Virus record (IMG/VR): IMGVR_UViG_3300006805_000185
Location: 1-22,382 of that record
Source: a virus
DNA: 22,382 nt
Strand: one strand, 5' to 3'
In this document: piece after piece, positions 209 to 7,293 of the stretch
Layout: each line of letters opens with the position of its first letter
Position numbering within the stretch: the stretch's first letter is position 1
Notes under the pieces: model-generated
The model's input: the letters and a program-made list of their open reading frames with translations, nothing else
Databases searched by the model: none
What the model was told of the DNA's origin: nothing
Program-made: the position numbers and the translations under genes

Positions 209-238
209 TTGACTACGGCATTTTGAGTGTGATATGAT
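209..238 (+). promoter_or_regulatory. Putative sigma70-type promoter P1
   Basis: TTGACT (209-214) and TATGAT (233-238) are separated by 18 bases, close to the bacterial sigma70 consensus. The expected start point is near 244-246, directly before two hairpins and a terminator with no ORF between, so it should drive the small RNA at 244-400. Confidence 0.6.
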
Positions 239-243
239 TAGAG

Positions 244-400
244 CCTCTTAGGAAAGCCCTGAGAGACGTTAGGAGCAATCCTAAGGTACATAATCAGTGA
301 TGATGAACTAAATAGTAAAGAACTACTTCTACGGGATTAGAGCAGTTCTCCTTTAAGATTAAGACTGGTAGAATTAAAACCTCTACTGGTCTTTTTCTTT
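244..400 (+). ncRNA. Putative structured small RNA 1
   Basis: This unit has its own promoter (209-238) and a Rho-independent terminator (361-400) and contains no credible ORF. The predicted transcript of about 150 nt opens with a hairpin pairing 245-252 with 258-265 (8 bp, one G-U), followed by a 6-bp hairpin at 269-284 closed by a GCAA (GNRA) tetraloop. A weaker stem pairs 319-324 with 344-349. The 3' half holds TTCTCCTTTA at 346-355, complementary to the phage's own AAGGAGAA ribosome binding sites and similar to the 3' end of 16S rRNA. It matches no RNA family I know. A processed leader or phage regulatory RNA is possible; expression is unproven. Confidence 0.5.
361..400 (+). terminator. 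Rho-independent terminator of small RNA 1
   Basis: A 10-bp stem (363-372 with 382-391, two G-U pairs, extendable by two A-T pairs) with a 9-base loop is followed by TTTTTCTTTT. This is a classic intrinsic terminator for rightward transcription. Confidence 0.75.
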
Positions 401-461
401 TATATGCCTTGAAGTATTTGGCATATTGTAATGATAATGAAAGGGCAGTACTTAAAGAAAA

Positions 462-563
462 GGGGGGTGGGGTATTTGAGATATGCCGTATGTCCCTAGA
501 TAGATAGAGTATCTATTATATATATGGGGTACGGGGGGGGTGGTGTGGGGGTGTGTCTCGGGG
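462..563 (+). repeat. G-tract cluster, G-quadruplex candidate
   Basis: Six runs of four or more G lie on this strand in otherwise AT-rich DNA: 462-467, 469-472, 526-529, 533-540, 547-551 and 560-563. The last four are spaced by 3, 6 and 8 bases, which fits a four-tract G-quadruplex with somewhat long loops. Between the two groups is a small palindrome, TAGATA-gag-TATCTA (501-515). There is no ORF. Possible roles are a transcription or replication pause site; nothing proves one. Confidence 0.5.
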
Positions 564-632
564 TTTGGTCTTTGATTGTTCACATCGTATCCTTGAAGCC
601 GGCTGATATATCAACTATATATTCTAGAAGCC

Positions 633-661
633 TTGACTTGATTCCGGAAGTATGCTATGAT
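633..661 (+). promoter_or_regulatory. Putative sigma70-type promoter P2
   Basis: TTGACT (633-638) and TATGAT (656-661) are separated by 17 bases. Both hexamers are identical to those of P1. The expected start is near 668, where the long hairpin of the second small RNA begins. Confidence 0.65.
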
Positions 662-667
662 TGTTCT

Positions 668-784
668 TGTCGGTAGGAGAAGGACTCGGGGGGATAGTTC
701 TCCTACTGGCTGTTGTTAAGCTATGCCATATAAGGCCCAGGATTGTTCAGGATAATACTTGAATGGTCCTGGGCTTCTCCTTTA
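668..784 (+). ncRNA. Putative structured small RNA 2
   Basis: The unit lies between promoter P2 (633-661) and a terminator-like hairpin (733-776). The predicted transcript of about 115 nt starts at a 13-bp stem pairing 669-681 with 698-710 (two G-U pairs), whose loop contains a run of six G. The 5' arm carries AGGAG and the 3' arm CTCCT, so a Shine-Dalgarno-like sequence is sequestered by an anti-Shine-Dalgarno-like one. The 3' end repeats TTCTCCTTTA (775-784), also present in small RNA 1. The DNA after both units is related: ATAT-s-CCTTG-w-AGTAT-ww-GGC at about 402-422 and 784-804. This suggests two copies of one cassette. No known RNA family is recognised. Confidence 0.5.
733..784 (+). terminator. 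Terminator-like hairpin of small RNA 2
   Basis: A 15-bp stem pairs 735-749 with 760-774 (three G-U pairs; GCCCAGGA and TCCTGGGC at the base), extendable by one or two pairs. It is followed by TTCTCCTTTA, an interrupted rather than continuous T tract, so termination may be partial. Confidence 0.55.
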
Positions 785-814
785 TATCCCTTGTAGTATA
801 AGGCTTATGAGCCG

Positions 815-6897: not shown

Positions 6898-7293
6898 ATG
6901 TGGGCAACGATAGGTCACACTGTGAAAGTAAATAACCGAGAGGTACCTTTCCTCATTGATGACCTATTGGCTATAGTGATTAGCCCAAGGCCAGAGAATG
7001 ATTGGCAAGCTTTAATGGAAGCTGTTCCCGGTGATGAGCCAGCAGAAAGTAAAGATGCACTGCAGCCACTGCGTGAAGCAGTAGTAGATTGCATTGACAT
7101 GCTGTCAGAACAAGACCATTTTATTATTGATGCTATGAACTCAGAGCAGATAACATATGATGAGTTGGGCAAACGATTAGGCACATCGCTTACACATGCC
7201 TGGCGTCTACGCAATGCAGCATACAAGAACTTAGAACAAATACTAGAACGTCATGATGTTATAAGAACTTACTTAAGGTTAGATGATGAGTGA
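6898..7293 (+). CDS. Sigma-70 region 4-like helix-turn-helix regulator
   Basis: ATG 6898 follows the peptidase stop closely. Residues from about 60 to 120 read LREAVVDCIDMLSEQDHFIIDAMNSEQITYDELGKRLGTSLTHAWRLRNAAYKNL, which matches the sigma-70 region 4 pattern: an acidic 'l.eqer.vi' helix, then helix-turn-helix with a YDELGKRLG first helix and a recognition helix ending in RxxAYxxL. The N-terminal 55 residues contain no region 2, so the protein cannot be a full sigma factor on its own. It may redirect or modify host RNA polymerase, or be a simple DNA-binding regulator. It overlaps the next gene by 11 bases. Confidence 0.65.
   Translation: MWATIGHTVKVNNREVPFLIDDLLAIVISPRPENDWQALMEAVPGDEPAESKDALQPLREAVVDCIDMLSEQDHFIIDAMNSEQITYDELGKRLGTSLTHAWRLRNAAYKNLEQILERHDVIRTYLRLDDE

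Follow-up and report, generated by a model that had tools for sequence, protein, structure and literature searches.

Two putative structured RNA genes with comparative support in the control region of an uncultured freshwater phage group

What is encoded in the ~1 kb of non-coding DNA that separates, in a 22,382-base IMG/VR virus record, a 63-aa gene ending at 193 from a 31-aa gene at 1179? A sequence-only reading had seen there two units, each a promoter followed by strong hairpins and a terminator, and had taken the pair for a duplicated, undescribed phage small-RNA gene. The record, analysed over its whole length and called the window below, belongs to an uncultured tailed phage group of lake- and river-type freshwater, in which the minus strand carries the late genes and the plus strand the early ones. 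In IMG/VR, 191 relatives of its major capsid protein were found, and identity to proteins of annotated phage records is 36% at most; no close isolate of the group was found in the phage collection searched, nor any similar DNA in phage and plasmid records. The comparisons presented here, together with the folding of both units, support the view that the control region carries two separate folded non-coding RNA genes, designated RNA1 and RNA2, whose predicted shapes are kept while their letters change. The features of the region, all on the plus strand, are as follows.

209-238: promoter P1, TTGACT-18-TATGAT, extended -10 (TGA ahead of TATGAT)
~244-400: RNA1, ~155 nt, five helices with an intrinsic terminator at the end (folding, alignments, covariance models)
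245-265: RNA1 helix H1, 8 bp, loop AAAGC, at the predicted transcript start (alignment pairing)
267-286: RNA1 helix H2, 7 bp, one base past H1 (both bases changed in 5 of 7 pairs)
293-304: RNA1 small hairpin (helix 3), AUCA-GUGA-UGAU (single folds, alignment pairing)
311-318: RNA1 invariant single strand AAUAGUAA (all 12 rows)
319-349: RNA1 helix H4, GGGA-type loop, in relatives two sequence variants that can replace each other (single folds, alignment)
355-400: terminator T1 (RNA1 helix 5), 12-bp stem and U-tract (folding, alignment)
460-570: G-rich block with the window's only quadruplex motif (526-563), also in distant relatives
633-661: promoter P2, TTGACT-17-TATGAT, extended -10
~668-785: RNA2, ~118 nt (folding, alignment, covariance model)
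669-710: RNA2 stem-loop, 13 bp (669-681/698-710), G-rich loop (both bases changed in 7 of 12 pairs)
711-732: RNA2 conserved linker GCUAwGCCAUA (copies compared)
733-785: terminator T2 (RNA2 helix 2), 18-19 bp stem (733-776) with invariant G-U pairs, then CUUCUCCUUU
1109-1137: candidate promoter P3, TTGTGC-17-TACTAT, for the first downstream gene (read by eye, unscored)
1179-1274: first downstream gene, 31 aa, ribosome site AAGGAGA

Relatives were gathered by a DNA search of capsid-related records and by three pattern scans of IMG/VR. The control region was found, whole or in part, in ~30 contigs, which after removal of repeats left 12 distinct copies of each unit, all from one phage group; these include a very diverged RNA1 recovered with the covariance model (L147, E 4e-7) and another diverged RNA1 in L145. 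One relative, G028, could be closed via a 41-base end overlap and measures ~35.5 kb. A 47.8-kb contig (G035; L113, L112) carries the control region twice, in diverged versions ~37.3 kb apart, probably because the assembly went once round a circular genome and continued into another strain.

The hexamers TTGACT and TATGAT, which the sequence-only reading had placed 17-18 bases apart in both units, are indeed present at 209-238 and 633-661, each pair with TG ahead of the -10 element, and P1 and P2 are predicted from these letters to be promoters of the sigma-70, extended -10 type. Promoter-type matches are not rare by themselves (11 found vs 8.0 expected), and the case for the units therefore rests on the relatives. 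A TAnnnT box ends 5-7 bases ahead of the first stem pair in 24 of 24 copies and is preceded by TG in 23 of them; at P1, TGnTAnnnT stands 5-6 bases ahead of H1 in all 12 copies, with a spacer of 18 in nearly all. The position of the -10 element is kept even where an HNH endonuclease gene, its 3' end overlapping P1, has taken the place of the 63-aa gene (L119, L133, L134, L145 and G028), and in G028 the stop codon of this gene lies inside helix H1. Elsewhere in the window, a 131-aa protein (6898-7293) matches phage RNA polymerase sigma factors weakly (phrog_1740, 7.5e-6).

Folding and comparison bear out the succession of strong hairpins from the predicted transcript start and then a terminator in both units, into which, as had been noted, no ORF fits. 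RNA1 (244-400) folds at -49 kcal/mol (z -4.45) and RNA2 (667-790) at -51.2 kcal/mol (z -3.81), each beating all 200 shuffles. The check proposed earlier, for stems maintained in relatives through compensating changes, was carried out with a positive outcome. In the model-fitted alignment of 12 RNA1 copies, standard pairs fill 98.0% of pair cells and both partners have changed in 23 of 40 pairs (7.8 on average after shuffling, 0 of 500), and for the 12 copies of RNA2 the figures are 95.3% and 11 of 30 pairs (shuffled 5.3, 0 of 500); the alignments are small, their rows are related and the shuffle control leaves this relatedness in. Sliding one arm by 1-3 columns lowers pairing to 38-61% in RNA1, and slides give 32-53% in RNA2. 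An unfitted MAFFT alignment of 10 RNA1 copies still shows 97.1% of cells paired and 11 of 36 pairs changed on both sides, and six diverged RNA1 copies folded singly have in common the 5' hairpins, the small hairpin, H4 and the terminator. Such conservation of stems shows that the structures are not due to chance.

The direction of the wobble pairs identifies the molecule under selection. G-U cells outnumber A-C cells by 84 to 3 in RNA1 and by 87 to 4 in RNA2 (12 distinct copies each); a functional opposite strand would give the reverse excess, and DNA palindromes would give neither, which argues that RNA of the plus strand is what has been selected. The G-U pairs had earlier been read in just this way, as a mark of functional RNA. 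The same asymmetry refutes, for the main stems, the idea that they are operators or protein-binding palindromes in DNA that only resemble RNA hairpins. That idea finds some footing in the true DNA palindromes of the region, for instance TGATATATCA at 604-613 and 843-852, but with stem letters that vary while pairing is kept, it is barely credible as an account of the units. Palindromes of the TGATATATCA type recur at 603-613, 842-852 and 1077-1088 of the window and in relatives, and could themselves be operators. Two other repeated motifs were seen: CTATCTGnATTnGTGATGG at 815-837 and 913-935, which recurs in most relatives and, on the opposite strand, in the distant L168 (7040-7060), and GCGGCGAATC at 1065-1076, of which G028, G013 and G017 have a copy overlapping the -35 element of candidate P3.

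Within RNA1, what stays fixed are the AAAGC loop, GUGA, the single strand AAUAGUAA and the GGGA loop, the stems being free to change. The small hairpin reads UACA-GUGA-UGUA in L145 and UCUAA-GAAG-UUAGA in L147, which with the window form makes a clear compensated series. RNA2 keeps its G-rich loop and GCUAwGCCAUA and likewise lets its stems change: the upper stem is highly variable, with 13 bp in the window and 15-17 bp in other copies, the loop retains its G-rich run, and in L146 an extra hairpin-like insert lies within that loop. The stems of this unit had been given as 13 and 15 bp; the 13-bp hairpin stands as described, but the terminator stem is longer than stated, at 18-19 bp, and its tail, CUUCUCCUUU, is U-poor. 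Compensated changes occur in both terminator stems, and each unit has, at the level of sequence and throughout its 12 distinct copies, its own conserved promoter and terminator.

The proposal of a duplication fared less well. The architectures of RNA1 and RNA2 differ, and when their covariance models were cross-searched each found its own unit only, the RNA2 model adding weak matches to its own terminator in mirror image. The trailing sequences, which had been described as related, do resemble one another significantly in the window (local score 18, vs 6.5, sd 1.3, after shuffling), but in eight of nine relatives the resemblance is at chance level; a trace remains only in L121, whose unit 2 is closest to that of the window. 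The models that do not cross and the trailing sequence that is not kept lead us to reject a duplicate pair. A search of Rfam 15 with both units, at gathering and relaxed E-values, returned no family (the weak matches, at E values of 1.9 and above, scored far short of the thresholds), and a tRNA/tmRNA search found none. Covariation, strand-specific G-U pairs, a fixed promoter position, conserved terminators and the lack of an Rfam match together favour the earlier suggestion of an undescribed phage structured RNA, here probably two.

How far the RNAs extend beyond the group was assessed in several ways. Neither model matched the searched relatives at ~70-75% capsid-protein identity, an Rfam search of four distant relatives gave no match, and the RNA1 core, sought as an exact match only, was absent from bacterial genomes. 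A candidate structured RNA at the corresponding site in the distant relative L168 (5968-6250) was discarded, its folding being no better than that of shuffles.

We consider it likely, at a probability of roughly 0.6, that RNA1 and RNA2 are two separate, non-homologous small RNA genes whose products act in trans and are recognised by their structure. From the conserved sequences, host RNA polymerase with its main sigma factor would start RNA1 at ~242-244 and RNA2 at ~668, and would stop at the intrinsic terminators ~155 and ~118 nt further on. The RNAs would fold while being made, the structure itself being evident from covariation, and would then most likely work in trans; the likeliest role is to bind a protein or an RNA of the host early in takeover. 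The conserved loops and single strands fit a protein or host RNA as the recognising partner. Tested segments of both RNAs have no run of at least 10 Watson-Crick pairs with the plus strand of the window and only isolated 10-mers in G028; with no long antisense pairing in either, no phage mRNA target is seen. Phage-encoded small RNAs have been reviewed as a class (PMC12197685), and RNA1 and RNA2 would resemble its members in being short, non-coding and phage-borne, with a promoter and an intrinsic terminator of their own, both predicted here; they differ in lacking a shared family and in that two different structured RNAs stand side by side. The G-rich loops, with GGGGA in the H4 loop, call to mind another kind of trans-acting RNA. 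Sponges of the CsrB/RsmZ type carry several hairpins with G-rich loops. A CsrA sponge was nevertheless rejected, as GGA is not kept: the RNA2 loops of L120, L122, L123 and L145 carry GGGGGGCU without GGA.

The main rival to such stand-alone RNAs starts from the position of both units upstream of the same genes, which is compatible with a role in cis. P1 and P2 would then feed the early genes, and the 5' hairpins would modify RNA polymerase, or a factor of phage or host origin would permit passage through T1 and T2. The model is HK022 put, two stem-loops in ~70 nt, of which putL lies downstream of PL, that suppress downstream terminators via the beta' zinc-binding domain (PMC9378689). Like put, RNA1 opens at the start of a predicted early sigma-70 transcript with two adjacent hairpins, terminators precede the early genes, and a small ORF begins just past T1 in the left copy of G035 and in relatives nearly identical to it. 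However, H1 and H2 span ~42 nt, their stems are shorter and freely exchanged, three further helices follow, and RNA2 has a single stem-loop ahead of its terminator. T1 and T2, moreover, are conserved as terminators close behind the upstream hairpins, and the downstream genes seem to have a promoter of their own, candidate P3, at whose matching place TTGCGG-17-TATAAT is read by eye in G028, G013 and G017. A strong promoter, a short RNA and a terminator ahead of phage genes are also found in the lambda 6S RNA/pR' leader. Regulation there acts through the DNA-bound Q protein, whereas here the RNA structure is under selection. A riboswitch or attenuator with mutually exclusive folds, to which a structured RNA followed by a terminator might also point, is highly improbable: no Rfam riboswitch matches, and L121 and L141 share the upstream part bar a few bases beside the terminator, yet their terminators differ, so that no upstream strand must pair with a terminator arm; with the terminator exchanged and the upstream part nearly constant, none was found to pair and co-vary with it. 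The exchange of terminators, candidate P3 and the lack of a two-stem put form in RNA2 favour stand-alone RNAs and make the cis role, though the main rival, an unlikely one.

The G-rich tract between the units raises the further question of whether the region serves DNA replication. The conserved element TATATATA..GGGTACnGGGGGGG..GGGGG, of quadruplex type, lies at 460-570 in the window, at ~6730-6770 in L168 and, on the minus strand, at ~17810-17860 in L163 and ~400-430 in L165, a wider spread than that of the RNAs. An origin in the control region is a fair guess. Transcripts of the region might then prime or regulate phage DNA replication, the tract forming an R-loop, a proposal that we regard as more doubtful than the cis role. 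It draws on the sole quadruplex region of G028 lying, as in the window, between the units and on the non-template strand, on the survival of the tract in relatives at ~72% capsid identity where neither RNA model matches, on a GC skew that shifts at the control region from about zero or negative to positive, and on the proteins scanned (part of the set, including G028), among which no DNA polymerase, primase or helicase family was found. Against it, T1 ends RNA1 ahead of the tract and RNA2 begins past it, GC skew tracks gene direction here, and the many proteins without a family match could be replication proteins. A search of the region for exact DnaA boxes (TTWTNCACA) found none. Paired structured RNAs and a G-rich sequence are also features of ColE1, where RNA II and RNA I form an antisense pair. 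RNA1 and RNA2 share with these a setting that could be an origin, but lie on the same strand and are not mutually antisense, and the tract lies outside both. Fainter still is the prospect of a double-stranded DNA phage devoid of recognisable replication proteins that replicates with host enzymes from an RNA-primed G-quadruplex/R-loop origin, the two RNAs serving as parts of its primer or of its copy control.

RNA1 and RNA2 would constitute two new, comparatively supported families of structured RNA in phages, and as concrete molecules with predicted ends they can be sought in lake metatranscriptomes. The 1-kb non-coding region that carries them may hold the switches for replication and early control in a phage without recognised replication genes.
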